Assembly: GCA_914767715.1 (NCBI GenBank)
Contig: OU612071.1
Location: 28,145,681-28,209,680 of the forward strand
DNA: 64,000 bases
Reading direction: 5' to 3'
DNA from: Membranipora membranacea
Taxonomy: Eukaryota; Bryozoa; Gymnolaemata; Cheilostomatida; Membraniporidae
Position numbers and translations under genes: made by a program. The first letter of the stretch is position 1, and each line of letters starts with the position of its first letter. The notes under the pieces are model-generated. The model was not told the origin of the DNA. It saw only the letters and a list, made by a program, of their open reading frames with translations, and made no database searches. Positions 221-53,100 of the stretch are shown here, piece after piece.

Positions 221-258
<38 letters not shown>

Positions 259-1956: not shown

Positions 1957-4900
1957 GTAAAGATCTACCTCTAACATTAAGAGCGGTTCAGCAAATCTTA
2001 TAATCACTTTGCAAACTGCTCAGATCACACTTTTGATAGTAACTGATTCAAATTTTGTCAAAATAGGACTCTTATTTTTAGCCTACATCACAGTGGCTTC
2101 TTAGTCAAAATAGGCCCCCTCCCTCTCCTAATCAATCAAGCATTAAGATCACTTTAGTTGTAGATATTTTGGACACTTCTGCTCGTGCAAAGGTCCAATA
2201 ATTCACTATAATAAGTCTCTCTCTCTGTTTAGTTCTGAGTAACAATGGACGGCTGCACAGGAGCTTTATAGGGAACTTACAGTACTGGAGCTGGTATAGT
2301 CTGAATGCAGACAATGATGACTCGACCATCCTAACAGTACAGTTTACTAAGCAGTATGAGGAAACGGCACTAAGGCTCACATCCAGCGGAGACCATAGGC
2401 ATCGATATACAGGGGGAGATAACAAGTGTACAAGATGGTAAGTATGAGGAGACAGCACTAAGGCTCAACTACAGCGGAGACCACAGGCATAGATATACAG
2501 GTGGAGATAACAAGTGTACAAGATGGTAAGTATGAGGAGACAGCACTAAAGCTCACCTCCAGCGGGGACCATAGGCATAGATATACAGGGGGAGATAACA
2601 AGTGTACAAGATGGTAAGTATGAGGAGACAGCACTAAGGCTCACCTCCAGCGGAGACCATAGGCATAGATATACAGGGGGAGATAACAAGTGTACACGGT
2701 GGTAAGTATGAGGAGACAGCACTAAGGCTCACCTCCAGCGGGGACCATAGGCATAGATATACAGGGGGAGATAACAAGTGTAAAAGATGGTAAGTATGAG
2801 GAGACAGCACTAAGGCTCACCTCCAGCGGGGACCATAGGCATAGATATACAGGGGGAGATAACAAGTGTACACGGTGGTAAGTATGAGGAGACAGCACTA
2901 AGGCTCACCTCCAGCGGGGACCATAGGCATAGATATACAGGGGGAGATAACAAGTGTAAAAGATGGTAAGTATGAGGAGACAGCACTAAGGCTCACATCC
3001 AGTGGAGACCACAGGCATAGATATACAGGGGGAGATAACAAGTGTACACGGTGGTAAGTATGAGGAGACAGCACTAAAGCTCACCTCCAGCGGGGACCAT
3101 AGGCATAGATATACAGGGGGAGATAACAAGTGTACAAGATGGTAAGTATGAGGAGACAGCACTAAGGCTCACCTCCAGCGGGGACCATAGGCATAGATAT
3201 ACAGGGGGAGATAACAAGTGTACAAGGTGGTAAGTATGAGGAGACAGCACTAAGGCTCACCTCCAGAGGTGACCATAGGCATAGATATACAGGGGGAGAT
3301 AACAAGTGTACAAGGTGGTAAGTATGAGGAGACAGCACTAAGGCTCACCTCCAGCGGGGACCATAGGCATAGATATACAGGGGGAGATAACAAGTGTACA
3401 AGATGGTAAGTATGAGGAGACAGCACTAAGGCTCACCTCCAGAGGTGACCATAGGCATAGATATACAGGGGGAGATAACAAGTGTACTAGGTGGTAAGTA
3501 TGAGGAGACAGCACTAAGGCTCACCTCCAGCGGGGACCATAGGCATAGATATACAGGGGGAGATAACAAGTGTACAAGGTGGTAAGTATGAGGAGACAGC
3601 ACTAAGGCTCACCTCCAGCGGGGACCATAGGCATAGATATACAGGGGGAGATAACAAGTGTACAAGATGGTAAGTATGAGGAGACAGCACTAAGGCTCAC
3701 ATCCAGCGGGGACCATAGGCATAGATATACAGGGGGAGATAACAAGTGTACACGGTGGTAAGTATGAGGAGACAGCACTAAGGCTCACATCCAGTGGAGA
3801 TCATAGGCATAGATATACAGGGGGAGATAACAAGTGTACAAGATGGTAAGTATGAGGAGACAGCACTAAGGCTCACCTCCAGCGGGGACCATAGGCATAG
3901 ATATACAGGAGGAGATAACAAGTGTACAAGATGGTAAGTATGAGGAGACAGCACTAAGGCTCACTTCCAGTGGAGACCATAGGCATAGATATACAGGGGG
4001 AGATAACAAGTGTACAAGGTGGTAAGTATGAGGAGACAGCACTAAGGCTCACCTCCAGCGGGGACCATAGGCATAGATATACTGGGGGAGATAACAAGTG
4101 TACACGGTGGTAAGTATGAGGAGACAGCACTAAGGCTCACCTCCAGTGGAGACCATAGGCATAGATATACAGGGGGAGATAACAAGTGTACAAGGTGGTA
4201 AGTATGAGGAGACAGCACTAAGGCTCACCTCCAGTGGAGACCATAGGCATAGATATACAGGGGGAGATAACAAGTGTACAAGGTGGTAAGTATGAGGAGA
4301 CAGCACTAAAGCTCACCTCCAGCGGGGACCATAGGCATAGATATACAGGGGGAGATAACAAGTGTACAAGATGGTAAGTATGAGGAGACAGCACTAAGGC
4401 TCACATCCAGCGGAGACCATAGGCATAGATATACAGGGGAGATAACAAGTGTACAAGATGGTAAGTATGAGGAGACAGCACTAAGGCTCACCTCCAGCGG
4501 GGACCATAGGCATAGATATACAGGGGGAGATAACAAGTGTACAAGGTGGTAAGTATGAGGGGACAGCACTAAGGCTCACCTCCAGCGGAGACCACAGGCA
4601 TAGATATACAGGGGAGATAACAAGTGTACAAGGTGGTAAGTATGAGGGGACAGCACTAAGGCTCACCTCCAGCGGAGACCACAGGCATAGATATACAGGG
4701 GGAGATAACAAGTGTACAAGGTGGTAAGTATGAGGGGACAGCACTAAGGCTCACCTCCAGCGGAGACCACAGGCATAGATATACAGGGGAGATAACAAGT
4801 GTACACGGTGGTAAGTATGAGGAGACAGCACTAAAGCTCACCTCCAGCGGGGACCATAGGCATAGATATACAGGGGGAGATAACAAGTGTACAAGGTGGT

Positions 4901-7900
4901 AAGTATGAGGAGACAGCACTAAGGCTCACCTCCAGCGGGGACCATAGGCATAGATATACAGGGGGAGATAACAAGTGTACACGGTGGTAAGTATGAGGAG
5001 ACAGCACTAAAGCTCACCTCCAGCGGGGACCATAGGCATAGATATACAGGGGGAGATAACAAGTGTACAAGATGGTAAGTATGAGGAGACAGCACTAAGG
5101 CTCACCTCCAGCGGAGACCACAGGCATAGATATACAGGGGAGATAACAAGTGTACACGGTGGTAAGTATGAGGAGACAGCACTAAAGCTCACCTCCAGCG
5201 GAGACCATAGGCATAGATATACAGGGGGAGATAACAAGTGTACAAGATGGTAAGTATGAGGGGACAGCACTAAGGCTCACCTCCAGCGGAGACCACAGGC
5301 ATAGATATACAGGGGAGATAACAAGTGTACACGGTGGTAAGTATGAGGAGACAGCACTAAAGCTCACTTCCAGCGGTGACCATATGCATAGATATACAGG
5401 GGAGATAACAAGTGTACACGGTGGTAAGTATGAGGAGACAGCACTAAAGCTCACCTCCAGCGGGGACCATAGGCATAGATATACAGGGGGAGATAACAAG
5501 TGTACAAGATGGTAAGTATGAGGAGACAGCACTAAAGCTCACCTCCAGCGGGGACCATAGGCATAGATATACAGGGGGAGATAACAAGTGTACAAGATGG
5601 TAAGTATGAGGAGACAGCACTAAAGCTCACCTCCAGCGGAGACCATAGGCATAGATATACAGGGGGAGATAACAAGTGTACAAGATGGTAAGTATGAGGA
5701 GACAGCACTAAGGCTCACATCCAGCGGGGACCATAGGCATAGATATACAGGGGAGATAAGAAGTGTACACGGTGGTAAGTATGAGGAGACAGCACTAAGG
5801 CTCACATCCAGCGGAGACCATAGGCATAGATATACAGGGGGAGATAACAAGTGTACACGGTGGTAAGTATGAGGAGACAGCACTAAGGCTCACATCCAGC
5901 GGAGACCATAGGCATAGATATACAGGGGGAGATAACAAATGTACACGGTGGTAAGTATGAGGAGACAGCACTAAGGCTCACATCCAGCGGAGACCATAGG
6001 CATAGATATACAGGGGGAGATAACAAGTGTACACGGTGGTAAGTATGAGGAGACAGCACTAAGGCTCACATCCAGCGGAGACCATAGGCATAGATATACA
6101 GGGGGAGATAACAAGTGTACACGGTGGTAAGTATGAGGAGACAGCACTAAGGCTCACCTCCAGCGGGGACCATAGGCATAGATATACAGGGGAGATAACA
6201 AGTGTACACGGTGGTAAGTATGAGGAGACAGCACTAAGGCTCACCTCCAGCGGGGACCATAGGCATAGATATACTGGGGGAGATAACAAGTGTACACGGT
6301 GGTAAGTATGAGGAGACAGCACTAAAGCTCACCTCCAGCGGAGACCATAGGCATAGATATACAGGGGGAGATAACAAGTGTACACGGTGGTAAGTATGAG
6401 GAGACAGCACTAAGGCTCACCTCCAGCGGGGACCATAGACATAGATATACAGGGGGAGATAACAAGTGTACAAGATGGTAAGTATGAGGAGACAGCACTA
6501 AGGCTCACATCCAGCGGAGACCACAGGCATAGATATACAGGGGGAGATAACAAGTGTACAAGATGGTAAGTATGAGGAGACAGCACTAAGGCTCACCTCC
6601 AGCGGGGACCATAGGCATAGATATACAGGGGGAGATAACAAGTGTACAAGGTGGTAAGTATGAGGAGACAGCACTAAAGCTCACCTCCAGCGGGGACCAT
6701 AGACATAGATATACAGGGGGAGATAACAAGTGTACACGATGGTAAGTATGAGGAGACAGCACTAAGGCTCACTTCCAGTGGAGACCATAGGCATAGATAT
6801 ACAGGGGGAGATAACAAGTGTACACGGTGGTAAGTATGAGGAGACAGCACTAAGGCTCACCTCCAGTGGAGACCACAGGCATAGATATACAGGGGGAGAT
6901 AACAAGTGTACAAGATGGTAAGTATGAGGAGACAGCACTAAGGCTCACCTCCAGCGGGGACCATAGGCATAGATATACAGGGGGAGATAACAAGTGTACA
7001 CGGTGGTAAGTATGAGGAGACAGCACTAAGGCTCACCTCCAGCGGAGACCATAGGCATAGATATACAGGGGGAGATAACAAGTGTACACGGTGGTAAGTA
7101 TGAGGAGACAGCACTAAGGCTCACCTCCAGCGGGGACCATAGGCATAGATATACAGGGGGAGATAACAAGTGTACACGGTGGTAAGTATGAGGAGACAGC
7201 ACTAAAGCTCACCTCCAGTGGAGACCACAGGCATAGATATACAGGGGGAGATAACAAGTGTACAAGATGGTAAGTATGAGGAGACAGCACTAAGGCTCAC
7301 CTCCAGCGGGGACCATAGGCATAGATATACAGGGGGAGATAACAAGTGTACACGGTGGTAAGTATGAGGAGACAGCACTAAGGCTCACCTCCAGTGGAGA
7401 CCACAGGCATAGATATACAGGGGGAGATAACAAGTGTACAAGATGGTAAGTATGAGGAGACAGCACTAAGGCTCACCTCCAGCGGAGACCACAGGCATAG
7501 ATATACAGGGGGAGATAACAAGTGTACAAGATGGTAAGTATGAGGAGACAGCACTAAGGCTCACCTCCAGCGGAGACCACAGGCATAGATATACAGGGGG
7601 AGATAACAAGTGTACAAGATGGTAAGTATGAGGAGACAGCACTAAGGCTCACCTCCAGCGGAGACCACAGGCATAGATATACAGGGGGAGATAACAAGTG
7701 TACAAGGTGGTAAGTATGAGGAGACGGCACTAAGGCTCACCTCCAGCGGAGACCACAGGCATAGATATACAGGGGGAGATAACAAGTGTACAAGATGGTA
7801 AGTATGAGGAGACAGCACTAAGGCTCACCTCCAGTGGAGACCACAGGCATATATATACAGGGGGAGATAACAAGTGTACAAGATGGTAAGTATGAGGAGA

Positions 7901-10900
7901 CAGCACTAAGGCTCACCTCCAGCGGAGACCACAGGCATAGATATACAGGGGGAGATAACAAGTGTACAAGGTGGTAAGTATGAGGAGACAGCACTAAGGC
8001 TCACCTCCAGCGGAGACCACAGGCATAGATATACAGGGGGAGATAACAAGTGTACAAGATGGTAAGTATGAGGAGACAGCACTAAGGCTCACCTCCAGCG
8101 GGGACCACAGGCATAGATATACAGGGGGAGATAACAAGTGTACAAGATGGTAAGTATGAGGAGACAGCACTAAGGCTCACCTCCAGCGGGGACCATAGAC
8201 ATAGATATACAGGGGGAGATAACAAGTGTACACGGTGGTAAGTATGAGGAGACAGCACTAAGGCTCACATCCAGCGGGGACCATAGGCATAGATATACAG
8301 GGGGAGATAACAAGTGTACACGGTGGTAAGTATGAGGAGACAGCACTAAGGCTCACCTCCAGCGGGGACCATAGGCATAGATATACAGGGGGAGATAACA
8401 AGTGTACACGGTGGTAAGTATGAGGAGACAGCACTAAAGCTCACCTCCAGCGGGGACCATAGGCATAGATATACAGGGGGAGATAACAAGTGTACAAGGT
8501 GGTAAGTATGAGGAGACAGCACTAAAGCTCACCTCCAGCGGGGACCATAGGCATAGATATACAGGGGGAGATAACAAGTGTACACGGTGGTAAGTATGAG
8601 GAGACAGCACTAAAGCTCACCTCCAGCGGGGACCATAGGCATAGATATACAGGGGGAGATAACAAGTGTACAAGATGGTAAGTATGAGGAGACAGCACTA
8701 AGGCTCACCTCCAGCGGAGACCATAGGCATAGATATACAGGGGAGATAACAAGTGTACACGGTGGTAAGTATGAGGAGACAGCACTAAAGCTCACCTCCA
8801 GCGGGGACCATAGGCATAGATATACAGGGGGAGATAACAAGTGTACAAGATGGTAAGTATGAGGAGACAGCACTAAGGCTCACCTCCAGCGGAGACCATA
8901 GGCATAGATATACAGGGGAGATAACAAGTGTACACGGTGGTAAGTATGAGGAGACAGCACTAAAGCTCACCTCCAGCGGGGACCATAGGCATAGATATAC
9001 AGGGGGAGATAACAAGTGTACAAGATGGTAAGTATGAGGAGACAGCACTAAGGCTCACCTCCAGCGGAGACCATAGGCATAGATATACAGGGGAGATAAC
9101 AAGTGTACACGGTGGTAAGTATGAGGAGACAGCACTAAAGCTCACCTCCAGCGGGGACCATAGGTATAGATATACAGGGGGAGATAACAAGTGTACACGG
9201 TGGTAAGTATGAGGAGACAGCACTAAAGCTCACCTCCAGCGGGGACCATAGGCATAGATATACAGGGGGAGATAACAAGTGTACAAGATGGTAAGTATGA
9301 GGAGACAGCACTAAGGCTCACCTCAAGCGGAGACCATAGGCATAGATATACAGGGGAGATAACAAGTGTACACGGTGGTAAGTATGAGGAGACAGCACTA
9401 AAGCTCACCTCCAGCGGGGACCATAGGCATAGATATACAGGGGGAGATAACAAGTGTACAAGATGGTAAGTATGAGGAGACAGCACTAAAGCTCACATCC
9501 AGAGGTGACCATAGGCATAGATATACAGGGGAGATAACAAGTGTACACGGTGGTAAGTATGAGGAGACAGCACTAAAGCTCACCTCCAGCGGGGACCATA
9601 GGCATAGATATACAGGGGGAGATAACAAGTGTACAAGATGGTAAGTATGAGGAGACAGCACTAAGGCTCACCTCCAGCGGAGACCATAGGCATAGATATA
9701 CAGGGGGAGATAACAAGTGTACAAGATGGTAAGTATGAGGAGACAGCACTAAAGCTCACCTCCAGCGGAGACCATAGGCATAGATATACAGGGGGAGATA
9801 ACAAGTGTACACGGTGGTAAGTATGAGGAGACAGCACTAAGGCTCACATCCAGAGGTGACCATAGACATAGATATACAGGGGGAGATAACAAGTGTACAA
9901 GATGGTAAGTATGAGGAGACGGCACTAAGGCTCACCTCCAGCGGGGACCACAGGCATAGATATACAGGGGGAGATAACAAGTGTACACGGTGGTAAGTAT
10001 GAGGAGACAGCACTAAGGCTCACCTCCAGCGGAGACCATAGGCATAGATATACAGGGGGAGATAACAAGTGTACAAGATGGTAAGTATGAGGAGACAGCA
10101 CTAAGGCTCACCTCCAGCGGAGACCATAGGCATAGATATACAGGGGGAGATAACAAGTGTACACGGTGGTAAGTATGAGGAGACAGCACTAAAGCTCACC
10201 TCCAGCGGGGACCATAGGCATAGATATACAGGGGGAGATAACAAGTGTACACGGTGGTAAGTATGAGGAGACAGCACTAAGGCTCACCTCCAGCGGGGAC
10301 CATAGGCATAGATATACAGGGGGAGATAACAAGTGTACACGGTGGTAAGTATGAGGAGACAGCACTAAGGCTCACATCCAGAGGTGACCATAGGCATAGA
10401 TATACAGGGGGAGATAACAAGTGTACAAGGTGGTAAGTATGAGGAGACGGCACTAAGGCTCACCTCCAGCGGGGACCACAGGCATAGATATACAGGGGGA
10501 GATAACAAGTGTACACGGTGGTAAGTATGAGGAGACAGCACTAAGGCTCACCTCCAGCGGAGACCACAGGCATAGATATACAGGGGGAGATAACAAGTGT
10601 ACAAGGTGGTAAGTATGAGGAGACAGCACTAAGGCTCACCTCCAGAGGTGACCATAGACATAGATATACAGGGGGAGATAACAAGTGTACAAGGTGGTAA
10701 GTATGAGGAGACAGCACTAAGGCTCACCTCCAGCGGAGACCATAGGCATAGATATACAGGGGGAGATAACAAGTGTACAAGATGGTAAGTATGAGGAGAC
10801 AGCACTAAGGCTCACCTCCAGCGGAGACCATAGGCATAGATATACAGGGGGAGATAACAAGTGTACACGGTGGTAAGTATGAGGAGACAGCACTAAAGCT

Positions 10901-13900
10901 CACCTCCAGCGGGGACCATAGGCATAGATATACAGGGGGAGATAACAAGTGTACACGGTGGTAAGTATGAGGAGACAGCACTAAGGCTCACCTCCAGCGG
11001 GGACCATAGGCATAGATATACAGGGGGAGATAACAAGTGTACACGGTGGTAAGTATGAGGAGACAGCACTAAGGCTCACATCCAGAGGTGACCATAGGCA
11101 TAGATATACAGGGGGAGATAACAAGTGTACAAGGTGGTAAGTATGAGGAGACAGCACTAAAGCTCACCTCCAGCGGGGACCATAGACATAGATATACAGG
11201 GGGAGATAACAAGTGTACACGGTGGTAAGTATGAGGAGACAGCACTAAGGCTCACCTCCAGCGGGGACCATAGGCATAGATATACAGGGGGAGATAACAA
11301 GTGTACAAGGTGGTAAGTATGAGGAGACGGCACTAAGGCTCACCTCCAGCGGGGACCACAGGCATAGATATACAGGGGGAGATAACAAGTGTACACGGTG
11401 GTAAGTATGAGGAGACAGCACTAAGGCTCACCTCCAGCGGGGACCACAGGCATAGATATACAGGGGGAGATAACAAGTGTACAAGGTGGTAAGTATGAGG
11501 AGACAGCACTAAGGCTCACCTCCAGAGGTGACCATAGGCATAGATATACAGGGGGAGATAACAAGTGTACACGGTGGTAAGTATGAGGAGACAGCACTAA
11601 GGCTCACCTCCAGAGGTGACCATAGGCATAGATATACAGGGGGAGATAACAAGTGTACAAGATGGTAAGTATGAGGAGACAGCACTAAGGCTCACCTCCA
11701 GCGGAGACCATAGACATAGATATACAGGGGGAGATAACAAGTGTACAAGATGGTAAGTATGAGGAGACAGCACTAAGGCTCACCTCCAGCGGAGACCATA
11801 GGCATAGATATACAGGGGGAGATAACAAGTGTACAAGGTGGTAAGTATGAGGAGACAGCACTAAGGCTCACCTCCAGCGGAGACCATAGGCATAGATATA
11901 CAGGGGGAGATAACAAGTGTACAAGGTGGTAAGTATGAGGAGACAGCACTAAGGCTCACCTCCAGCGGGGACCATAGGCATAGATATACAGGGGGAGATA
12001 ACAAGTGTACACGGTGGTAAGTATGAGGAGACAGCACTAAGGCTCACCTCCAGCGGAGACCATAGGCATAGATATACAGGGGGAGATAACAAGTGTACAA
12101 GGTGGTAAGTATGAGGAGACAGCACTAAGGCTCACCTCCAGCGGAGACCATAGACATAGATATACAGGGGGAGATAACAAGTGTACAAGATGGTAAGTAT
12201 GAGGAGACAGCACTAAGGCTCACCTCCAGCGGAGACCATAGGCATAGATATACAGGGGGAGATAACAAGTGTACAAGGTGGTAAGTATGAGGAGACAGCA
12301 CTAAGGCTCACCTCCAGCGGGGACCATAGGCATAGATATACAGGGGGAGATAACAAGTGTACAAGGTGGTAAGTATGAGGAGACAGCACTAAGGCTCACC
12401 TCCAGCGGGGACCATAGACATAGATATACAGGGGGAGATAACAAGTGTACACGGTGGTAAGTATGAGGAGACAGCACTAAGGCTCACCTCCAGCGGGGAC
12501 CATAGGCATAGATATACAGGGGGAGATAACAAGTGTACACGGTGGTAAGTATGAGGAGACAGCACTAAAGCTCACCTCCAGCGGGGACCATAGGCATAGA
12601 TATACAGGGGGAGATAACAAGTGTACACGGTGGTAAGTATGAGGAGACAGCACTAAGGCTCACCTCCAGCGGAGACCATAGGCATAGATATACAGGGGGA
12701 GATAACAAGTGTACAAGGTGGTAAGTATGAGGAGACAGCACTAAGGCTCACCTCCAGCGGGGACCATAGGCATAGATATACAGGGGGAGATAACAAGTGT
12801 ACAAGGTGGTAAGTATGAGGAGACAGCACTAAGGCTCACCTCCAGCGGGGACCACAGGCATAGATATACAGGGGGAGATAACAAGTGTACACGGTGGTAA
12901 GTATGAGGAGACAGCACTAAGGCTCACCTCCAGAGGTGACCATAGGCATAGATATACAGGGGGAGATAACAAGTGTACAAGATGGTAAGTATGAGGAGAC
13001 AGCACTAAGGCTCACCTCCAGAGGTGACCACAGACATAGATATACTGGGGGAGATAACAAGTGTACAAGGTGGTAAGTATGAGGAGACGGCACTAAGGCT
13101 CACCTCCAGCGGGGACCACAGGCATAGATATACAGGGGGAGATAACAAGTGTACACGGTGGTAAGTATGAGGAGACAGCACTAAGGCTCACCTCCAGCGG
13201 GGACCACAGGCATAGATATACAGGGGGAGATAACAAGTGTACACGGTGGTAAGTATGAGGAGACAGCACTAAGGCTCACCTCCAGAGGTGACCATAGGCA
13301 TAGATATACAGGGGGAGATAACAAGTGTACAAGATGGTAAGTATGAGGAGACAGCACTAAGGCTCACATCCAGCGGAGACCATAGGCATAGATATACAGG
13401 GGGAGATAACAAGTGTACACGGTGGTAAGTATGAGGAGACAGCACTAAGGCTCACCTCCAGAGGTGACCATAGGCATAGATATACAGGGGGAGATAACAA
13501 GTGTACAAGATGGTAAGTATGAGGAGACAGCACTAAGGCTCACCTCCAGCGGAGACCATAGACATAGATATACAGGGGGAGATAACAAGTGTACAAGATG
13601 GTAAGTATGAGGAGACAGCACTAAGGCTCACATCCAGCGGAGACCATAGGCATAGATCTACAGGGGAGATAACAAGTGTACACGGTGGTAAGTATGAGGA
13701 GACAGCACTAAAGCTCACCTCCAGCGGGGACCATAGGCATAGATATACAGGGGGAGATAACAAGTGTACAAGGTGGTAAGTATGAGGGGACAGCACTAAG
13801 GCTCACCTCCAGCGGAGACCACAGGCATAGATATACAGGGGAGATAACAAGTGTACACGGTGGTAAGTATGAGGAGACAGCACTAAAGCTCACCTCCAGC

Positions 13901-16900
13901 GGGGACCATAGGCATAGATATACAGGGGGAGATAACAAGTGTACACGGTGGTAAGTATGAGGAGACAGCACTAAAGCTCACCTCCAGCGGAGACCATAGG
14001 CATAGATATACAGGGGGAGATAACAAGTGTACAAGGTGGTAAGTATGAGGAGACAGCACTAAGGCTCACCTCCAGCGGAGACCACAGGCATAGATATACA
14101 GGGGGAGATAACAATTGTACAAGGTGGTAAGTATGAGGAGACAGCACTAAGGCTCACCTCCAGCGGGGACCATAGGCATAGATATACAGGGGGAGATAAC
14201 AAGTGTACAAGGTGGTAAGTATGAGGAGACAGCACTAAAGCTCACCTCCAGCGGGGACCATAGGCATAGATATACAGGGGGAGATAACAAGTGTACACGG
14301 TGGTAAGTATGAGGAGACAGCACTAAAGCTCACCTCCAGCGGAGACCATAGGCATAGATATACAGGGGGAGATAACAAGTGTACAAGGTGGTAAGTATGA
14401 GGAGACAGCACTAAGGCTCACCTCCAGTGGAGACCATAGGCATAGATATACTGGGGGAGATAACAAGTGTACACGGTGGTAAGTATGAGGAGACAGCACT
14501 AAAGCTCACCTCCAGCGGGGACCATAGGCATAGATATACAGGGGGAGATAACAAGTGTACAAGGTGGTAAGTATGAGGAGACAGCACTAAGGCTCACCTC
14601 CAGCGGGGACCATAGACATAGATATACTGGGGGAGATAACAAGTGTACAAGATGGTAAGTATGAGGAGACAGCACTAAGGCTCACCTCCAGCGGGGACCA
14701 TAGGCATAGATATACTGGGGGAGATAACAAGTGTACACGGTGGTAAGTATGAGGAGACAGCACTAAAGCTCACCTCCAGCGGAGACCATAGGCATAGATA
14801 TACAGGGGGAGATAACAAGTGTACACGGTGGTAAGTATGAGGAGACAGCACTAAGGCTCACCTCCAGCGGGGACCATAGGCATAGATATACAGGGGGAGA
14901 TAACAAGTGTACACGGTGGTAAGTATGAGGAGACAGCACTAAAGCTCACCTCCAGCGGAGACCATAGGCATAGATATACAGGGGGAGATAACAAGTGTAC
15001 AAGATGGTAAGTATGAGGAGACAGCACTAAGGCTCACCTCCAGCGGAGACCATAGGCATAGATATACAGGGGAGATAACAAGTGTACAAGGTGGTAAGTA
15101 TGAGGAGACAGCACTAAAGCTCACCTCCAGCGGGGACCATAGGCATAGATATACAGGGGGAGATAACAAGTGTACAAGATGGTAAGTATGAGGAGACAGC
15201 ACTAAGGCTCACCTCCAGCGGAGACCATAGGCATAGATATACAGGGGAGATAACAAGTGTACAAGGTGGTAAGTATGAGGAGACAGCACTAAGGCTCACC
15301 TCCAGCGGAGACCATAGGCATAGATATACAGGGGAGATAACAAGTGTACAAGGTGGTAAGTATGAGGAGACAGCACTAAGGCTCACCTCCAGCGGGGACC
15401 ATAGGCATAGATATACAGGGGAGATAACAAGTGTACAAGATGGTAAGTATGAGGAGACAGCACTAAGGCTCACCTCCAGCGGGGACCATAGGCATAGATA
15501 TACAGGGGGAGATAACAAGTGTACAAGATGGTAAGTATGAGGAGACAGCACTAAGGCTCACCTCCAGCGGAGACCATAGGCATAGATATACAGGGGAGAT
15601 AACAAGTGTACAAGGTGGTAAGTATGAGGAGACAGCACTAAAGCTCACCTCCAGCGGGGACCATAGGCATGGATATACAGGGGGAGATAACAAGTGTACA
15701 AGGTGGTAAGTATGAGGAGACAGCACTAAGGCTCACCTCCAGCGGAGACCATAGGCATAGATATACAGGGGGAGATAACAAGTGTACACGGTGGTAAGTA
15801 TGAGGAGACAGCACTAAAGCTCACCTCCAGCGGAGACCATAGGCATAGATATACAGGGGGAGATAACAAGTGTACAAGATGGTAAGTATGAGGAGACAGC
15901 ACTAAGGCTCACCTCCAGCGGTGACCACAGGCATAGATATACAGGGGGAGATAACAAGTGTACACGGTGGTAAGTATGAGGAGACAGCACTAAAGCTCAC
16001 CTCCAGCGGAGACCATAGGCATAGATATACAGGGGGAGATAACAAGTGTACAAGATGGTAAGTATGAGGAGACAGCACTAAGGCTCACCTCCAGCTGAGA
16101 CCATAGGCATAGATATACAGGGGGAGATAACAAGTGTACAAGATGGTAAGTATGAGGAGACAGCACTAAGGCTCACCTCCAGCGGAGACCATAGGCATAG
16201 ATATACAGGGGGAGATAACAAGTGTACACGGTGGTAAGTATGAGGAGACAGCACTAAGGCTCACCTCCAGCGGGGACCATAGGCATAGATATACAGGGGG
16301 AGATAACAAGTGTACACGGTGGTAAGTATGAGGAGACAGCACTAAGGCTCACCTCCAGAGGTGACCATAGGCATAGATATACAGGGGGAGATAACAAGTG
16401 TACACGGTGGTAAGTATGAGGAGACAGCACTAAGGCTCACCTCCAGCGGGGACCATAGGCATAGATATACAGGGGGAGATAACAAGTGTACACGGTGGTA
16501 AGTATGAGGAGACAGCACTAAGGCTCACCTCCAGCGGAGACCATAGGCATAGATATACAGGGGAGATAACAAGTGTACACGGTGGTAAGTATGAGGAGAC
16601 AGCACTAAAGCTCACCTCCAGCGGAGACCATAGGCATAGATATACAGGGGGAGATAACAAGTGTACACGGTGGTAAGTATGAGGAGACAGCACTAAGGCT
16701 CACCTCCAGTGGAGACCACAGGCATAGATATACAGGGGGAGATAACAAGTGTACAAGATGGTAAGTATGAGGAGACAGCACTAAAGCTCACCTCCAGCGG
16801 AGACCATAGGCATAGATATACAGGGGGAGATAACAAGTGTACAAGATGGTAAGTATGAGGAGACAGCACTAAAGCTCACCTCCAGCGGAGACCATAGGCA

Positions 16901-31117: not shown

Positions 31118-31125
31118 TCATCAGC

Positions 31126-34896: not shown

Positions 34897-34904
34897 TGAC
34901 GTCA
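34897..34904. promoter_or_regulatory. Palindromic CRE/ATF site TGACGTCA in the EDEM3 promoter
   Basis: A perfect TGACGTCA lies 108 bases before the EDEM3 start codon, in a small GC-richer patch (CCCGCGCC just upstream). ATF/CREB-family bZIP factors bind this octamer, and its ACGT core is shared with elements bound by ATF6 and XBP1. Known EDEM genes are induced by the unfolded protein response, so the placement is plausible. The transcription start is not known from sequence. Confidence 0.5.
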
Positions 34905-34924
34905 TATCTAAGGTCAGTGACAAC

Positions 34925-35006
34925 ATGGCAGCCTCCACAGTAATTTGTTGAGTTGTGTTGTTGCTCAGCATTTAGTGTTGTATTCATGGTTTATACTCGA
35001 CTATAA
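34925..35006 (+). promoter_or_regulatory. Two candidate uORFs before EDEM3
   Basis: uORF1 (34925-34951, MAASTVIC) has a strong start context, A at -3 and G at +4. uORF2 (34986-35006, MVYTRL) ends six bases before the EDEM3 ATG at 35012. They matter only if transcription begins upstream of 34925. AACATGGCAGC at 34922 also resembles a YY1-type start-site element, so the first one may instead mark the promoter. Confidence 0.35.
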
Positions 35007-35011
35007 GCACC

Positions 35012-35100
35012 ATGATGAAGTTCATGGATTCCTTGGTGATCTTGCCATTACTGGTGACTGTATGTGGTGCTCTCGGACACAATGGGACTAAAGATTTGAG
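35012..35100 (+). CDS. EDEM3: EDEM3 exon 1: signal peptide
   Basis: The start at 35012 gives [20 protein letters not shown], a charged start followed by a hydrophobic core and a small-residue cleavage region, as expected for ER entry. A second Met one codon later is an alternative start. The exon ends in phase 2 before a GTAGGA donor. Confidence 0.85.
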
Positions 35101-41100: not shown

Positions 41101-44100
41101 TACGTTTCTTTTCTCGGATAGTCCCTATATTACTTTATTAAAATATTCCAGTGAATGTTTGCTTGACGTTAGCTTAGGGGTGTCTCTATATTAGTTAGTA
41201 ATAAATTTATTCTGTCTGAGGTGAAAGTCTATACAATGTAAAGTGTGTGAGTAATTGTTAGCTAGAATTAAAATTCACCATCTCAAGCCCGTTAGAGAAT
41301 ACCTTACACCTTATGACTATGTTACAATATGACATCTATATGGCAGCGTTATGTTGTACGTTATGTTGTATGTTATGTTGTACGTTATGTTGTACGTTAT
41401 GTTGTACATTATGTTGTACGTTATGTTTGGCGTTATGTTGTAGATTTGAGGAGGCAGCACATAAGGCTATGGACTTTTTATGGGACCAGAGAAATGTACA
41501 CAGTAATCTAATGGGTACTGTGATCAATGTACATAACGGGGACTGGGTTAGGAGAGGTATGTCTATGTTATAATGTATATATAACACACATATCATATTA
41601 TCTAGGCCTATATAAATAAATGTATATATTTAATTATGTACTTTGCCTTCCAACATTTGAGCATATTTGTACCTTTTGTTTATTCATTGAAAGCAGAAAA
41701 GCAATGTCATGGTACCTCCAAAATCACTAATGATACACCAATACACAATTTTAGCTTCTGATAATTGGTAACAAAAAATTTGTTTGAGTCGTATCCCTCC
41801 TTCAATTCACCATTTGCCATCGCTGTGTGCGGCGATATGACAGCAATGAACTCTATCTCCTTTGAGAAGGAGTTCATTGGTGACAGCGTTTTAGGAAAAC
41901 TTCGAGGCTAAATCAATGCAGATTTTAACAGAGACCATCAGTATTCCCCAGTTCCTTGGTTTGTATTTTCTCTATAATATATATACTAATATTGAATTAT
42001 AGAGAGTAGTATAGGAGCAGGTATTGACTCATATTATGAATATGTACTCAAAGCTTATATACTACTAGGAGATGAAGTCTATCTTACTAGGTAATAATAA
42101 TATACTACAAACTGTCCTACCCTCTCAAAGCTCAACTCTCATATGTTTTATCTTACCTTCATGTGCATATATCTGACTTTTGACCTTAGTATTCACATTA
42201 GACTGATGACATCTGTTGGAATACATTTATGCAGTTATGCTCAAAAAGACCATAATGCAACAGCCTTCATTCAGCCCCATGTTGTATCAGATTGCGGAGA
42301 TTCAGTCTGGATATGAAACCCGCTGCGAATAGACTGTCCCTTTCATATACATACATCATCATCTGATATCATTACTTTGCAGTTAAATCTATATCAAATA
42401 CCATCAGCAGAAAATTCACCTGTGGTTATTTTATGGAGAGATGGGTTGAAAATGAGGAATATTTATAAACGGCACATACTTCTTTCCGTAGGAAGTACTC
42501 AGTGATTCAGTGACACTTCAATGACACTTCATTTTCTTCCTTTTATTCATACAGGTTTAATAAACACTATGACGCTATAATGACATATATAAGTCAGGGG
42601 CACCTGATGCTTAGTGTCGACATGCACAAACCGACATCTGGCAGCAGAAATATAATGGATGCTCTACTCGCCTTCTGGCCTGGGCTACAGGTCAGTGTGT
42701 AGGGAGCATTGTGATGTCATCATGTACTGTGTGTGATGTCATAATGTACTGTGGTCTGTTTGTGATGTTATCAAGCTGTTTTCTGATGTCTGTGATGTCG
42801 TTGTGTTTGTGTTGATCTTTGTTTTTCCGTGTTTATATGGCCTTTGAGCTTCTTGTTTAGTTGCTTCCAGGTTTCCCCCTAAAATAAGTTATACAGTTTG
42901 AGAGCACATTTACTTCTCGGTACATTGTCAGATTAAATATCAATAGCTGTGATGCAGGGAAAAACACTGCTATGTGAAGATAAGATTCAGCATTGCAGTG
43001 ACAGACGCTTACTGAAAGCAATCCCATATTGGGAGGCATCTAGTCTGCTCTCTAGGACGTTCCTTTTGCTCTGGGAAGTTTGCCTCTTTTATATCTAGAC
43101 AGAATATAAGACAAACTACAAGGTTATACTCACTATCTGTGTGAATTATTCGCATTTACAGGTTCTGAAGGGAGATTTGAAGTCAGCTATAGAAATGCAT
43201 GAGGTTTTATATCAGATAACACAACGTCATAACTTCCTACCCGAGGCTGTCACTGCTGACTTTCATGTACACTGGGGTCAGCATCCGCTCAGGCCTGAGT
43301 TTGTAGAGTCTACTTACTTCTTATATAAGGTAAGTTATCACTACTTACTTCTTATATAAGGTAAGTTATCACCACTTACTCTCTATATAAGGTAAGTTAT
43401 CACTACTTACTCTCTATATAAGGTAAGTTATCACCACTTACTTCCTATACAAGGTAAGTTATCACTACTTACTCTCTATATAAGGTAAGTTATCACTACT
43501 TACTCGCTATATAAGGTAAGTTATCACTTACTCTCTATATAAGGTAAGTTATCACTACTTACTCTCTATATAAGGTAAGTTATCACTACTTACTCGCTAT
43601 ATAAGGTAAGTTATCACTTACTCTCTATATAAGGTAAGTTATCACTACTTACTCTCTATATAAGGTAAGCCATCACTACTTACTCTCTATATAAGGAAGG
43701 TCATGCATGACTCCGAATGAGTCACCAGGGCATTAGCTTTCTAGTCAGCTCATCGCAATTAACGGTGCAACAGCTTGACCCATCAGGCTCCAGGCTATGA
43801 ATTATTGTACAGCTATTTCTGTATCATCCAGTTCAGAACTGGTATAATTATCATCATCAATCTTCTTACATTTGCATTGTATACTGTAAGCTGTCATTAT
43901 GAAAGAATAGGATGACTTTGAGGGTGCCAATAGCCACTGGTTTTACACAATTGTCTGCCGTATGCGGCGGGACACCCCTGACCTACACCCTCTCCCTACA
44001 CTGATTGACTGTTGTGTATATTGACAGGCTACAGGAGATCCCCACTATCGAGACGTCGGACGTACCGTATTAGAGAACCTGGAGAAGCATGCTAGAGTTA

Positions 44101-47100
44101 AGTGTGGATTCGCTGCTATAAAAGATGTGAGAGGAGGTACTCATGAGGATCAGTAAGTTCTTATCTATAGTAAATCTGATAGTAGAGTCACGTCATAAAG
44201 GCCTGAGCTACCTCTGGTACATCTACCACAGATAGTAGGAGGGAGATAACAAGATATTCTCTCAACCTCTACCTCACAATTATCAGCTCATTCATATTAT
44301 GGTAGAGAAAAGCTTCACCTCTATCATGTTGTTTTCATCCTCTGTCCATATCTTGCTGGTTCCGATTAAATGGTTGCATTGTCAATACTGCAGTAAACTG
44401 GGAAGTAGTAGTGTCAAGATTCTGATTGATTTGGCACGTTTTGTTGGCGTCATTTGGGCTCCTCTTGGCAGTACTTGTCTCAACGAAAAACCACAGATCT
44501 AATGATCCCCAATTGTAAACATGACAAATAAGTCGTATCATAAATTATGTAATATCTGGAAACATGACATTGTTGACATGTTACACTTTCCTGTTTGCAG
44601 AATGGACTCCTTTGTGTTAGCCGAGACATTCAAGTATCTATACTTGTTATTTGAGGAAGAAGAGAATTTATCTATAGATTTATCACAGTATATATTCACT
44701 ACAGAGGCCCATATATTACCTCTATCATTAGCCAATCACTCAGCTGGTGGCAGACCGCAGGTTAGTATCATCTACTCACTGATTGGTTGGTTAGTATCAT
44801 CTATTCACTGATTGGTCGGTTAGTATACTCTAATCACTGATCGGTCGGTTAGTATTATCTACTCACTGATTGGTCAGTTAGTATCATCTACTCACTGATT
44901 GGTCGGTTAGTATACTCTAATCACTGATTGGTCGGTTAGTATCATCTACTCACTGATTGGTCGGTTAGTATTTACTACTTTTGGCAGTCAATGTACTCAT
45001 CTCAGAGAGTAGTCAGTTAAAATATTCTGCTCACTGATTTGTTTGTTGCTTAGTGTACTCTACTCTTTTATTGTCATATTCGATGACTTAGCTTAAGATT
45101 GTGTAATGATTGGACATAGTGGTCAAACGAATGAGTGATGGATGGTGGTTAAGATTCTCAGGTTGATAGATATCAACTTGCTTTGCGACTGAAATAGAAT
45201 CATGTGCTGCTGTGCACTCAGTAATGGAGCACTGATTATCTCTGTATGTAATACTTTGTTATTCTCTCACACTCTTATCTGTGTTATGATTGTAGGAGGA
45301 TAGCCTGACCGGAGGTAACAGTAAATCTTCTCGTATACATCATGATCACTCCTGTCCTAATATCAGAGAGATCACAAGTATGTCTCTAATCAGATACGCT
45401 CAAACTGTCAGATCTCCACTCAAAAACTTTGTAGAGCTCAAATGTCCCAAACCTAAAGCCAGGTGAGTCCCTAATATAAATGAACTTATAGCTTTTCATG
45501 TACTTTGCACAGTAATTATACACAATTTTACCAAATGATTTGGAGCGCACAAATTTTGGCCAGTTCAACTTAAAACACTATGTTTTCCAAAACCTAATGA
45601 TCGGCAGAATAATTACTTGGCAAATTCGTGATACGTGAAAATATTTCTAATCATTCACTGAAATTGTTCCTCCTGAAGGACATCAAAAGTCTTATTTATA
45701 AAGATAGCACAAACAAAGTAGGCTGGCTTTACATCCATCCATGTTGTGTCCCAAACTCACTAGTTCCAGCAATCCCTGCAGCAATTTCCAAATAGTTATT
45801 ATTTTGGAGTTGTCCTCTTTAAATCAGAGAGAGGACAACTTTCACTTTTGTAAAATATTTCAATACTTGTAATACTAATAATATTGCTGATATATAATAT
45901 TGACAGTTGGACATACTGGTTATATGAGATATCACGGCTAGTACACAGCTGCTCTGTACTCAGCAGCTCTTATATATTATTGTTCTGCTCCAGTCTTATT
46001 TTCAGTCTTATTTCAGGTTTTCTGTTCTTATTGTACCTGATATCTGATTACTTCAGCGTCTCTTAGTACTAATCAATGTTCTGTGTTAGTAAATAGATAA
46101 TATCAACTTCAGTTTAAGTGCTCTAACTCGCCAACCATCCTGTTTGGGATGTGTCCACCACCAGTGTCCTGGGCAGAATTTGAGCACTGAAACTTTTCAA
46201 ACTTGTACATTAATGTGTCTCTGAATTTCATGACTACGTAATTTGTTCATCATATGGGAATTGAATTCATACGCCGCCCAGACCAGACCTCAGCAGCCGT
46301 AGAAATATAACATTATTTTTATCTTTCCTTAAGAGGCCCGTAATTGATGATTCAATAGACAATGATTGACGCAAACATATTTTAACCATCACTCCCTTCT
46401 CTCAAATGATCTTGACTCCTCATCTCAGCGTGTGACCTCTGACCCTGTGACCTCTGACTCTGTGACCCTGTGACAGAGATGATAATCATGTTTATGTATG
46501 TTACTCTCGCAGCGGGACACCCAGACTAAGAGCTGCTGAGTTCTCAGCCACAGATAATAAGCACACTGAGACGTTACTTAGTATGGGAGTAGAGCTACAT
46601 TATACTACAGATGGGAGACTACAGCTAACTCACGCTCCTACTAAGGTTAGTACTGAGGCTACGGCTAACTCATGCTCCTACTAAAGTAAGTACTGAGGCT
46701 ACAGCTAACTCACACTCCTACTAAGGTTAGTACTGAGGCTACAGCTAACTCACGCTCCTACTAAGGTTAGTACTCAGGCTACAGCTAACTCACGCTCCTA
46801 CTAAGGTTAGTACTGAGGCTACGGCTAACTCACGCTCCTACTAAAGTAAGTACTGAGGCTACAGCTAACTCACACTCCTACTAAGGTTAGTACTGAGGCT
46901 ACAGCTAACTCACGCTCCTACTAAGGTTAGTACTGAGGCTACGGCTAACTCACGCTCCTACTAAGGTTAGTACTGAGGCTACAGCTAACTCACGCTCCTA
47001 CTAAGGTTAGTACTGAGGCTACAGCTAACTCACGCTCCTACTAAGGTTAGTACTGAGGCTACAGCTAACTCACGCTCCTACTAAGGTTAGTACTGAGGCT

Positions 47101-50100
47101 ACAGCTAACTCACGCTCCTACTAAGGTTAGTACTGAGGCTACAGCTAACTCACGCTCCTACTAAGGTTAGTACTGAGGCTACAGCTAACTCACGCTCCTA
47201 CTAAGGTTAGTACTGAGGCTACAGCTAACTCACGCTCCTACTAAGGTTAGTACTGAGGCTACGGCTAACTCACACTCCTACTAAGGTTAGTACTGAGGCT
47301 ACAGCTAACTCACGCTCCTACTAAGGTTAGTACTGAGGCTACAGCTAACTCACGCTCCTACTAAGGTTAGTACTGAGGCTACAGCTAACTCACGCTCCTA
47401 CTAAGGTTAGTACTGAGGCTACAGCTAACTCACGCTCCTACTAAGGTTAGTACTGAGGCTACAGCTAACTCACGCTCCTACTAAGGTTAGCACTGAGGCT
47501 ACAGCTAACTCACGCTCCTACTAAGGTTAGTACTGAGGCTACAGCTAACTCACGCTCCTACTAAGGTTAGTACTGAGGCTACAGCTAACTCACACTCCTA
47601 CTAAGGTTAGCACTGAGGCTACAGCTAACTCACGCTCCTACTAAGGTTAGTACTGAGGCTACAGCTAACTCACGCTCCTACTAAGGTTAGTACTGAGGCT
47701 ACAGCTAACTCACGCTCCTACTAAGGTTAGTACTGAGGCTACAGCTAACTCACGCTCCTACTAAGGTTAGTACTGAGGCTACAGCTAACTCACGCTCCTA
47801 CTAAGGTTAGTACTGAGGCTACGGCTAACTCACACTCCTACTAAGGTTAGTACTGAGGCTACAGCTAACTCACGCTCCTACTAAGGTTAGTACTGAGGCT
47901 ACAGCTAACTCACGCTCCTACTAAGGTTAGTACTGAGGCTACAGCTAACTCACGCTCCTACTAAGGTTAGTACTGAGGCTACAGCTAACTCACGCTCCTA
48001 CTAAGGTTAGCACTGAGGCTACAGCTAACTCACGCTCCTACTAAGGTTAGTACTGAGGCTACAGCTAACTCACGCTCCTACTAAGGTTAGTACTGAGGCT
48101 ACAGCTAACTCACACTCCTACTAAGGTTAGTACTGAGGCTACAGCTAACTCACGCTCCTACTAAGGTTAGTACTGAGGCTACAGCTAACTCACGCTCCTA
48201 CTAAGGTTAGTACTGAGGCTACAGCTAACTCACGCTCCTACTAAGGTTAGTACTGAGGCTACAGCTAACTCACGCTCCTACTAAGGTTAGTACTGAGGCT
48301 ACAGCTAACTCACGCTCCTACTAAGGTTAGTACTGAGGCTACAGCTAACTCACGCTCCTACTAAGGTTAGTACTGAGGCTACAGCTAACTCACGCTCCTA
48401 CTAAGGTTAGTACTGAGGCTACAGCTAACTCACGCTCCTACTAAGGTTAGTACTGAGGCTACAGCTAACTCACGCTCCTACTAAGGTTAGTACTGAGGCT
48501 ACAGCTAACTCACGCTCCTACTAAGGTTAGTACTGAGGCTACAGCTAACTCACACTCCTACTAAGGTTAGTACTGAGGCTACGGCTAACTCACGCTCCTA
48601 CTAAGGTTAGTACTGAGGCTACGGCTAACTCACGCTCCTACTAAGGTTAGTACTGAGGCTACAGCTAACTCACGCTCCTACTAAGGTTAGTACTGAGGCT
48701 ACAGCTAACTCACGCTCCTACTAAGGTTAGTACTGAGGCTACAGCTAACTCACGCTCCTACTAAGGTTAGTACTGAGGCTACGGCTAACTCACGCTCCTA
48801 CTAAGGTTAGTACTGAGGCTACAGCTAACTCACGCTCCTACTAAGGTTAGTACTGAGGCTACAGCTAACTCACGCTCCTACTAAGGTTAGTACTGAGGCT
48901 ACAGCTAACTCACGCTCCTACTAAGGTTAGTACTGAGGCTACAGCTAACTCACGCTCCTACTAAGGTTAGTACTGAGGCTACAGCTAACTCACGCTCCTA
49001 CTAAGGTTAGTACTGAGGCTACAGCTAACTCACGCTCCTACTAAGGTTAGTACTGAGGCTACAGCTAACTCACGCTCCTACTAAGGTTAGTACTGAGGCT
49101 ACGGCTAACTCACGCTCCTACTAAGGTTAGTACTGAGGCTACAGCTAACTCACGCTCCTACTAAGGTTAGTACTGAGGCTACAGCTAACTCACGCTCCTA
49201 CTAAGGTTAGTACTGAGGCTACAGCTAACTCACGCTCCTACTAAGGTTAGTACTGAGGCTACAGCTAACTCACGCTCCTACTAAGGTTAGTACTGAGGCT
49301 ACAGCTAACTCACGCTCCTACTAAGGTTAGTACTGAGGCTACAGCTAACTCACGCTCCTACTAAGGTTAGTACTGAGGCTACAGCTAACTCACGCTCCTA
49401 CTAAGGTTAGTACTGAGGCTACAGCTAACTCACGCTCCTACTAAGGTTAGTACTGAGGCTACAGCTAACTCACGCTCCTACTAAGGTTAGTACTGAGGCT
49501 ACAGCTAACTCACGCTCCTACTAAGGTTAGTACTGAGGCTACAGCTAACTCATGCTCCTACTAAGGTTAGTACTGAGGCTACAGCTAACTCACGCTCCTA
49601 CTAAGGTTAGTACTGAGGCTACAGCTAACTCACGCTCCTACTAAGGTTAGTACTGAGGCTACAGCTAACTCACGCTCCTACTAAGGTTAGTACTGAGGCT
49701 ACGGCTAACTCACGCTCCTACTAAGGTTAGTACTGAGGCTACAGCTAACTCACGCTCCTACTAAGGTTAGTACTGAGGCTACAGCTAACTCACACTCCTA
49801 CTAAGGTTAGTACTGAGGCTACAGCTAACTCACGCTCCTACTAAGGTTAGTACTGAGGCTACAGCTAACTCACGCTCCTACTAAGGTTAGTACTGAGGCT
49901 ACAGCTAACTCATGCTCCTACTAAGGTTAGTACTGAGGCTACAGCTAACTCACGCTCCTACTAAGGTTAGTACTGAGGCTACAGCTAACTCACGCTCCTA
50001 CTAAGGTTAGTACTGAGGCTACGGCTAACTCACGCTCCTACTAAGGTTAGTACTGAGGCTACGGCTAACTCACGCCCCTACTAAGGTTAGTACTGAGGCT

Positions 50101-53100
50101 ACAGCTAACTCACGCTCCTACTAAGGTTAGTACTGAGGCTACAGCTAACTCACACTCCTACTAAGGTTAGTACTGAGGCTACGGCTAACTCACGCTCCTA
50201 CTAAGGTTAGTACTGAGGCTACGGCTAACTCACGCTCCTACTAAGGTTAGTACTGAGGCTACAGCTAACTCACGCTCCTACTAAGGTTAGTACTGAGGCT
50301 ACAGCTAACTCACGCTCCTACTAAGGTTAGTACTGAGGCTACAGCTAACTCACGCTCCTACTAAGGTTAGTACTGAGGCTACAGCTAACTCACGCTCCTA
50401 CTAAGGTTAGTACTGAGGCTACGGCTAACTCACGCTCCTACTAAGGTTAGTACTGAGGCTACAGCTAACTCACGCTCCTACTAAGGTTAGTACTGAGGCT
50501 ACAGCTAACTCACGCTCCTACTAAGGTTAGTACTGAGGCTACAGCTAACTCATGCTCCTACTAAGGTTAGTACTGAGGCTACAGCTAACTCACGCTCCTA
50601 CTAAGGTTAGTACTGAGGCTACAGCTAACTCACGCTCCTACTAAGGTTAGTACTGAGGCTACAGCTAACTCACGCTCCTACTAAGGTTAGTACTGAGGCT
50701 ACAGCTAACTCACGCTCCTACTAAGGTTAGTACTGAGGCTACAGCTAACTCACGCTCCTACTAAGGTTAGTACTGAGGCTACAGCTAACTCACGCTCCTA
50801 CTAAGGTTAGTACTGAGGCTACAGCTAACTCACGCTCCTACTAAGGTTAGTACTGAGGCTACAGCTAACTCACACTCCTACTAAGGTTAGTACTGAGGCT
50901 ACAGCTAACTCACACTCCTACTAAGGTTAGTACTGAGGCTACAGCTAACTCACACTCCTACTAAGGTTAGTACTGAGGCTACAGCTAACTCACGCTCCTA
51001 CTAAGGTTAGTACTGAGGCTACGGCTAACTCACGCTCCTACTAAGGTTAGTACTGAGGCTACAGCTAACTCACGCTCCTACTAAGGTTAGTACTGAGGCT
51101 ACAGCTAACTCACGCTCCTACTAAGGTTAGTACTGAGGCTACAGCTAACTCACGCTCCTACTAAGGTTAGTACTGAGGCTACAGCTAACTCACGCTCCTA
51201 CTAAGGTTAGTACTGAGGCTACAGCTAACTCACGCTCCTACTAAGGTTAGTACTGAGGCTACAGCTAACTCACGCTCCTACTAAGGTTAGTACTGAGGCT
51301 ACGGCTAACTCACGCTCCTACTAAGGTTAGTACTGAGGCTACAGCTAACTCACGCTCCTACTAAGGTTAGTACTGAGGCTACAGCTAACTCACGCTCCTA
51401 CTAAGGTTAGTACTGAGGCTACAGCTAACTCACGCTCCTACTAAGGTTAGTACTGAGGCTACAGCTAACTCACGCTCCTACTAAGGTTAGTACTGAGGCT
51501 ACAGCTAACTCACGCTCCTACTAAGGTTAGTACAGAGGCTACAGCTAACTCACGCTCCTACTAAGGTTAGTACTGAGGCTACAGCTAACTCACGCTCCTA
51601 CTAAGGTTAGTACTGAGGCTACAGCTAACTCACGCTCCTACTAAGGTTAGTACTGAGGCTACAGCTAACTCACACTCCTACTAAGGTTAGTACTGAGGCT
51701 ACGGCTAACTCACGCTCCTACTAAGGTTAGTACTGAGGCTACGGCTAACTCACGCTCCTACTAAGGTTAGTACTGAGGCTACAGCTAACTCACGCTCCTA
51801 CTAAGGTTAGTACTGAGGCTACAGCTAACTCACGCTCCTACTAAGGTTAGTACTGAGGCTACAGCTAACTCACGCTCCTACTAAGGTTAGTACTGAGGCT
51901 ACAGCTAACTCACGCTCCTACTAAGGTTAGTACTGAGGCTACGGCTAACTCACGCTCCTACTAAGGTTAGTACTGAGGCTACAGCTAACTCACGCTCCTA
52001 CTAAGGTTAGTACTGAGGCTACAGCTAACTCACGCTCCTACTAGGGTTAGTACTGAGGCTACAGCTAACTCACGCTCCTACTAAGGTTAGTACTGAGGCT
52101 ACAGCTAACTCACGCTCCTACTAAGGTTAGTACTGAGGCTACGGCTAACTCACGCTCCTACTAAGGTTAGTACTGAGGCTACAGCTAACTCACGCTCCTA
52201 CTAAGGTTAGTACTGAGGCTACAGCTAACTCACGCTCCTACTAAGGTTAGTACTGAGGCTACAGCTAACTCACACTCCTACTAAGGTTAGTACTGAGGCT
52301 ACAGCTAACTCACACTCCTACTAAGGTTAGCACTGAGGCTACAGCTAACTCACGCTCCTACTAAGGTTAGTACTGAGGCTACGGCTAACTCACGCTCCTA
52401 CTAAGGTTAGTACTGAGGCTACAGCTAACTCACACTCCTACTAAGGTTAGTACTGAGGCTACAGCTAACTCACACTCCTACTAAGGTTAGCACTGAGGCT
52501 ACAGCTAACTCACGCTCCTACTAAGGTTAGTACTGAGGCTACAGCTAACTCACGCTCCTACTAAGGTTAGTACTGAGGCTACAGCTAACTCACGCTCCTA
52601 CTAAGGTTAGTACTGAGGCTACAGCTAACTCACACTCCTACTAAGGTTAGTACTGAGGCTACAGCTAACTCACGCTCCTACTAAGGTTAGTACTGAGGCT
52701 ACAGCTAACTCACGCTCCTACTAAGGTTAGTACTGAGGCTACGGCTAACTCACGCTCCTACTAAGGTTAGTACTGAGGCTACAGCTAACTCACACCCCTA
52801 CTAAGGTTAGTACTGAGGCTACAGCTAACTCACACCCCTACTAAGGTTAGTACTGAGGCTACAGCTAACTCACGCTCCTACTAAGGTTAGTACTGAGGCT
52901 ACGGCTAACTCACGCTCCTACTAAGGTTAGTACTGAGGCTACAGCTAACTCACGCTCCTACTAAGGTTAGTACTGCCCCACCTCAGGCAGGCTGTATGTA
53001 GGTAAAGATACGTGGCAGCACGTATTGTCTCAATGTTCACCATTGGAAGGTGTTGAGTTACTGAGTATGATCATTACTTTTTTCATCTGACTGATAAAAA

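Follow-up and report, generated by a model that had tools for sequence, protein, structure and literature searches.

Tandem arrays straddling exon-intron borders in two neighbouring genes of the bryozoan Membranipora membranacea, with a coding imprint in the longest of them

A stretch of 64,000 nucleotides of the Membranipora membranacea genome (GenBank assembly GCA_914767715.1, contig OU612071.1, positions 28,145,681 to 28,209,680 of the forward strand; called the window below and numbered from its first letter) carries the 3' part of a gene with a CTHRC1_C domain and, as its neighbour, a complete EDEM3-type gene. Six tandem arrays in these two genes, with units of 88, 50, 29, 31, 29 and 40 bp, each have a splice junction inside them, five at donors and one at an acceptor. 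We read them as splice-junction-spanning arrays of the kind called mirages in lancelets, which would have been duplicated at pre-existing junctions, tolerated there and enlarged by unequal exchange, with additional exchange between exon and array in the 88-bp case; our rough probability for this reading is 0.8. Their placement by Tandem Repeats Finder (TRF) and by our gene models agrees with the original prediction, which had put six arrays across these boundaries. Together they span about 33 kb, half of the window (the span of the 50-bp array includes a short non-array stretch).

2353..24842, forward strand: 88-bp array at the exon 5 donor of the CTHRC1_C gene; 255.9 copies (TRF), or 256 units with the last one cut; 22.5 kb
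26338..29882, forward strand: 50-bp array at the exon 7 acceptor of the CTHRC1_C gene; two blocks of 33 copies each (TRF)
38232..38521, forward strand: 29-bp array at the EDEM3 exon 4 donor; 10 identical units (TRF), each 24 bp of the exon 4 end plus GTAAG
43310..43696, forward strand: 31-bp array at the EDEM3 exon 10 donor; unit of 20 bp of the exon 10 end plus 11 bp of intron (TRF, gene model)
44760..44971, forward strand: 29-bp array at the EDEM3 exon 12 donor; unit of the last exon 12 base plus 28 bp of intron
46615..52975, forward strand: 40-bp array at the EDEM3 exon 14 donor; 159 copies over 6.4 kb; unit of 31 bp of the exon 14 end plus GTTAGTACT (9 bp)
25104..25119, forward strand: end of the interrupted last 88-bp unit, with an ATG|GTATGT donor at 25110|25111 (by eye)

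The 88-bp unit comprises the last 85 bp of exon 5 and 3 bp (GTA) of the donor, and a GTAAGT donor is created by the head-to-tail join of the units; the donor match TGGTAAGT was counted 254 times for the 256 units. Similarly, the unit join itself forms GTAAGT in the exon 4 array. Donor-like matches number 159 in the 40-bp array, 12 in the 31-bp array, and 10 and 8 in the 29-bp arrays at exons 4 and 12, respectively. The donors at the far ends of the 88-bp array (GTATGT, 25111) and of the exon 4 array (GTAAGG, 38517) are likely to be the original ones; for the former, resemblance of the surrounding sequence to the unit suggests a pre-array donor. At the acceptor, the 50-bp unit is made up of 37 bp of the intron 6 end and 13 bp of the exon 7 start. 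The earlier statement that the arrays copy the boundary is correct in that all six span a junction, but the array at 44760 shares only the last base of its exon; degenerate further copies of this array seem to continue to about 45058 (by eye).

The junctions were taken from gene models that run in one open frame in both genes.

6..30066, forward strand: CTHRC1_C-domain gene; 7 exons in the window, 5' end outside it
6-178, 820-926, 1355-1455, 1780-1956, 2233-2437, 25600-25697 and 29870-30066, forward strand: exons of the CTHRC1_C gene, in one open frame
35012..59739, forward strand: EDEM3-type gene; 22 exons, 1,113 residues, C-terminal KDEL

Pfam finds the CTHRC1_C domain in two stretches of the first gene, the best covering residues 196-328 (E 2e-43), and the GH47 (36-469) and PA domains in the product of the second. 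EDEM1 is the best solved relative of the latter protein, which we take to be EDEM3 from its domain order and KDEL end. Four of the six array junctions fall within the CTHRC1_C (196-328) or GH47 (36-469) match, with residue positions obtained by arithmetic; those of EDEM3 exons 12 and 14 are placed solely by frame and by GT/AG signals. In every array there remains one junction that preserves the reading frame, and the frame stays continuous in each gene only if splicing uses the first of the donors or the last of the acceptors. Reading on past any of the five array donors leads to a stop 4 to 51 nt downstream, which is ordinary for these genes, as it takes at most 93 nt at all 27 donors in both. 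Direct translation of the array copies as one long exon is ruled out by a stop 4 nt past the first donor. We infer that the spliceosome uses the exon-proximal site. Introns 5 and 6 of the CTHRC1_C gene match introns 2 and 3 in phase and, by eye, lie at the corresponding place in the other domain copy; these borders therefore look older than the arrays, which probably did not create introns 5 and 6.

Placement of the arrays was compared with chance after 37 TRF rows had been merged by hand into 24 loci and one locus of 2-base period omitted, leaving 23; the null collapsed each array to one unit and considered 54 junctions in about 29.3 kb. Because the presence of this feature led to the choice of window, all P values for placement are nominal. 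Among loci with at least five copies, six of nine straddle a junction where 0.58 would be expected (P = 5e-6; 0.84 expected and P = 2e-5 when placement is confined to gene bodies), as against none of the 14 lower-copy loci (0.65 expected). Setting exon 7 of the CTHRC1_C gene at its first copy gives P = 2e-6 for the loci of at least five copies, and 2.6e-5 in gene bodies. When a mixed array in EDEM3 intron 21 (58691-58929; 10-, 20-, 30- and 50-bp units of the TTACACTT type, away from junctions) is taken as 8.6 copies of 30 bp, the counts become 6 of 10 against 0 of 13 (P = 7e-6; gene bodies, 6e-5). Array placement in this window is thus far from random, as the original prediction had expected when it held that chance would rarely hit boundaries so often. 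Two further arrays do not straddle a junction.

41347..41442, forward strand: 12-bp array adjoining the EDEM3 exon 7 acceptor (junction 41443|41444)
39587..40430, forward strand: 31-bp purely intronic array of 27 copies, the longest non-junction array in the window

The first had been described as ending in the acceptor; it stops one base short and does not copy it. The second contains only three distinct full units, and its unit is partly palindromic.

The contrast between expanded and low-copy loci (6/9 against 0/14, Fisher P = 8e-4; 6/10 against 0/13 with the 58691 array counted as expanded, P = 0.002) could mean that arrays expand more readily at junctions or that they persist longer there. 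Splice junctions might themselves initiate arrays, if breaks linked to transcription or splicing (R-loops, stalled splicing complexes) favour tandem duplication at the borders, and both this contrast and the occurrence of five donor arrays together with an acceptor array would suit such an origin. However, the breakpoints are scattered: the donor units include 3, 5, 11, 28 and 9 bp of intron and 85, 24, 20, 1 and 31 bp of exon, with no fixed point. Furthermore, a scan of the 47 junctions without an array showed no more local duplication than in controls (the best match over 24 bases was 15, against a 95% quantile of 16 for the controls), within the limited reach of a scan that recovered five of the seven array-touching junctions and missed those at 44760 and 41443. 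We consider initiation at junctions unlikely, although it is the strongest competitor of selective tolerance, and one window cannot separate the two.

Chance combined with the choice of window, whereby arrays common in the genome landed on some borders and were noticed, is a very improbable explanation. The window was indeed selected for the feature, and with all 23 loci included (six at junctions, 1.23 expected) P is only 0.0009, or 0.003 for the 20 loci in gene bodies (1.62 expected); but six different units in two genes are involved, and published cases occur in several lancelet genes.

An indication of exchange between exon and array comes from variation within the 88-bp array, which holds 100 distinct sequences among its 255 full units. 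Substitutions relative to the consensus, of 39 kinds in 27 full codons, were compared with a null that preserves the type of change. Variants present in at least three units are synonymous in the exon frame in 12 of 16 cases (5.1 expected, P = 2e-4), and variants in one or two units in 8 of 23 (4.6 expected, P = 0.05), giving 20 of 39 overall (9.8 expected, P = 6e-5); the synonymous share differs between common and rare variants (Fisher P = 0.015). In the two other forward frames the common variants are synonymous in 2/16 and 3/16 cases, and among the reverse frames two give 2/16 while the one that shares wobble positions gives 10/16. After removal of the exon-copy variants, sorted by hand, 8 of 12 are synonymous (P = 0.003), or 8 of 13 if a one-base deletion is counted (P = 0.006). 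The exon frame is held without a stop by 225 of the 255 full units, and precisely the 27 residues of the exon are encoded by 119 of the 227 deletion-free units, the exon copy being counted in both figures. Copies that had been intronic from the start should show no influence of codon position; the imprint indicates that the ancestors of many 88-bp copies were filtered as coding sequence.

Crude toy simulations of exon-array exchange were compared with the observed synonymous share of 0.75 among common variants. Two-way conversion between exon and array came nearest, with a synonymous share of 0.62 among common variants and 0.24 among rare ones. Four simpler schemes were rejected as falling short, namely an exon copy merely protected from loss (0.28 to 0.30 among common variants), exon-biased seeding by itself (0.33 to 0.38) and conversion in one direction only, either from exon to array (0.29, 0.36) or from array to exon (0.30, 0.29). 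Biased seeding combined with array-to-exon conversion yielded 0.48 and 0.60, the latter with 1.3 common variants per run. The 88-bp units are nearly equally alike at all spacings examined. Their similarity to the exon copy shows no clear fall with distance, which fits long-range exchange rather than growth at an edge.

We explain these observations by the following sequence of events. Tandem duplication would have affected a short segment spanning an exon-intron border that was already present, and the duplication would survive as long as the copy adjoining the exon still supplies a correct splice site that keeps the frame. The array could then grow and shrink within the intron through unequal exchange, the full-length protein depending on the exon-proximal copy (the first among donors, the last among acceptors). 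In the 88-bp array, with its almost wholly exonic unit, sequence may also have been traded between the exon and the array copies, so that older variation in the array would bear the coding imprint. Somatic instability at the Adh3 mirage, cited in PMC3087553, makes exchange in such arrays plausible. We tentatively suggest that the 88-bp array may serve as an intronic reserve of coding-competent copies of the exon end, with conversion or unequal exchange (germ-line or somatic) repeatedly carrying copies into the place of the exon and out again; purifying selection on the exon might in this way reach about 250 copies and keep their older differences mostly synonymous.

Several results weigh against this account. 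Four of the 16 common variants alter a residue, a one-base deletion (excluded from the substitution counts) shifts the frame in 28 units and a stop is present in two. The coding imprint was examined in the 88-bp and 40-bp arrays and is seen in the former only; the latter, with few variants, has 2 of 4 common and 2 of 3 rare ones synonymous. Similarity of the 88-bp units does not increase in the direction of the exon copy (Spearman -0.10, P = 0.10). In the simulations, the two-way model produced only about 4 common variants per run compared with 16 observed, and one-way exchange models reached only 0.28 to 0.38.

It could also be proposed that the internal copies are functional and kept by selection, with hundreds of consensus donors binding U1, guarding a long intron from early polyadenylation or slowing splicing. 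The donors are almost all intact (the 88-bp array has 254 matches for 256 units, and 159 donor-like ones were counted in the 40-bp array). However, the arrays are homogeneous throughout, with donors not clearly distinct from the rest of the unit, the 40-bp array varies at donor positions +3 and +6, and the arrays themselves largely account for the intron length that the donors would have to guard. A function of this kind appears very improbable.

The 50-bp array, predicted as a single array at the exon 7 acceptor, is present there, but its two blocks of 33 copies, with a second exon 7 start between them, are due to an exact tandem duplication.

26215-28118 and 28119-30022, forward strand: tandem duplication of 1,904 bp; 1,905 bases match exactly at an offset of 1,904

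The duplicated segment contains the 50-bp array and most of exon 7 and also spans the intron 6-exon 7 border, and its two copies meet with a one-base overlap. The upstream exon 7 copy would end with a different tail and a stop. There are 64 AG|TGAGC sites in the 50-bp region, only two of which, both at exon 7 copies, lead into exon 7 sequence; at the remaining 62 the frame ends in a stop no more than 38 codons on, and in 52 cases this follows VSGV. The duplication may have arisen recently, or it may be an error of assembly. A wider artefact, in which misassembly or mixed haplotypes produced the array lengths or this duplication, is suggested by the identity of all 1,905 duplicated bases, array included, but is the least probable of the explanations, as simple misassembly would not yield 100 distinct full 88-bp units of near-equal likeness at every spacing, and the junction-spanning units are independent of any assumption on array length.

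The original prediction knew of no described class of junction-anchored arrays; such arrays are in fact already known, and the lancelet mirages form the same class. The comparisons that follow draw on excerpts of the papers cited. Minisatellite-like duplications of intron-exon borders were described in two lancelet globin genes (BflGb6 and BflGb9) and called mirages after Adh3 in a paper that also cites further genes (PMC3087553); a PGBD5 mirage was added later, with mention of TnC (PMC3902484), and all of these cases (Adh3, BflGb6, BflGb9, TnC and PGBD5) are cephalochordate. As in M. membranacea, tandem repeats cross the border at a donor or acceptor, with AG/GT signals in many copies (PMC3087553, PMC3902484). 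Splicing of the lancelet genes is reported or thought to be undisturbed (PMC3087553, PMC3902484), while here it is predicted from frame continuity. The lancelet mirages whose numbers are given in these excerpts are small, with 2-7 copies in PGBD5, 3 or 6 in BflGb6 and units of 10-72 bp in Adh3. In contrast, the arrays described here reach 256 units and 22.5 kb, occur six times in two neighbouring genes and include one with a synonymous excess.

Other systems are related to a lesser extent. Introns of lancelet VCBP3 hold complete or partial exons, some with splice sites, that resemble the adjacent coding exons (PMC2632668), but tandem arrays are not described in the excerpt and the data are not shown there. 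Human internal tandem repeats include minisatellites at exon-intron boundaries that can alter introns (PMC2812944); their units of about 30 bp occur in 4 copies on average and are often retained in transcripts, whereas in our models read-through meets early stops. Units of the IFI6 (6-16) minisatellite offer multiple splice donors (PMC4526556; reference in PMC2572611) and downstream units serve as donors, in contrast to the arrays here, where only the first donor preserves the frame. Intron gain by tandem genomic duplication likewise involves tandem copying of sequence with splice signals (PMC4974935), but in the CTHRC1_C gene, introns 5 and 6 seem to predate the arrays they carry. Lancelet huntingtin is mentioned as having tandem repeats, though not at borders (PMC2206037). 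A literature search, mostly of titles, found neither a genome-wide survey of junction-spanning arrays nor a report of exon-array exchange. Compared with the known cases, the additions are the scale, the nested exact duplication of 1,904 bp and the coding imprint of the 88-bp array. Junction-spanning arrays can thus reach tens of kilobases, and several can fit into one small region without breaking the frame. The synonymous excess provides a simple sequence test for joint evolution of an exon and its intronic copies; the test is applicable to any genome that contains junction-spanning arrays and is relevant to how intron growth, the choice of splice sites and repeat arrays influence one another.

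The last 88-bp unit is interrupted by an insertion.

24831..25103 including direct repeats (insert 24843-25091), reverse strand: U2 small nuclear RNA-like insertion inside the last 88-bp unit

Its Rfam match to U2 (24947-25079, minus strand; 33.9 bits, E 2.9e-5) lies under the gathering score of 46, and the Rfam scan of the window at gathering scores gave no match. By eye, 12-bp direct repeats (ATAACAAGTGTA) flank the insertion at 24831-24842 and 25092-25103, and a poly(A) stretch is not apparent. It may be a U2 copy inserted by retrotransposition, or a short element derived from U2.

Between the two genes (30000-35100), a scan for bacterial promoters and terminators yielded nothing useful. 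By eye, this region includes a stretch of about 1 kb (31121-32180) with inverted AGTGATGGCAA-like ends, GAGACGAGAC-type repeats inside and a tRNA-like short interspersed element near 31965, and, at 33744-34100, an element with long terminal inverted repeats (ACCGTAATCCCTCACCTATA...) that resembles a small DNA transposon. Within the EDEM3-type gene, a long inverted repeat surrounds a tRNA-like stretch in intron 14 (53161-53600, by eye), and exon 17 has an apparent GC donor (GCTAGT) at 55581-55582 in the gene model. An open frame running from an ATG to the end of the window (63881-64000, by eye) is possibly the start of a third gene.

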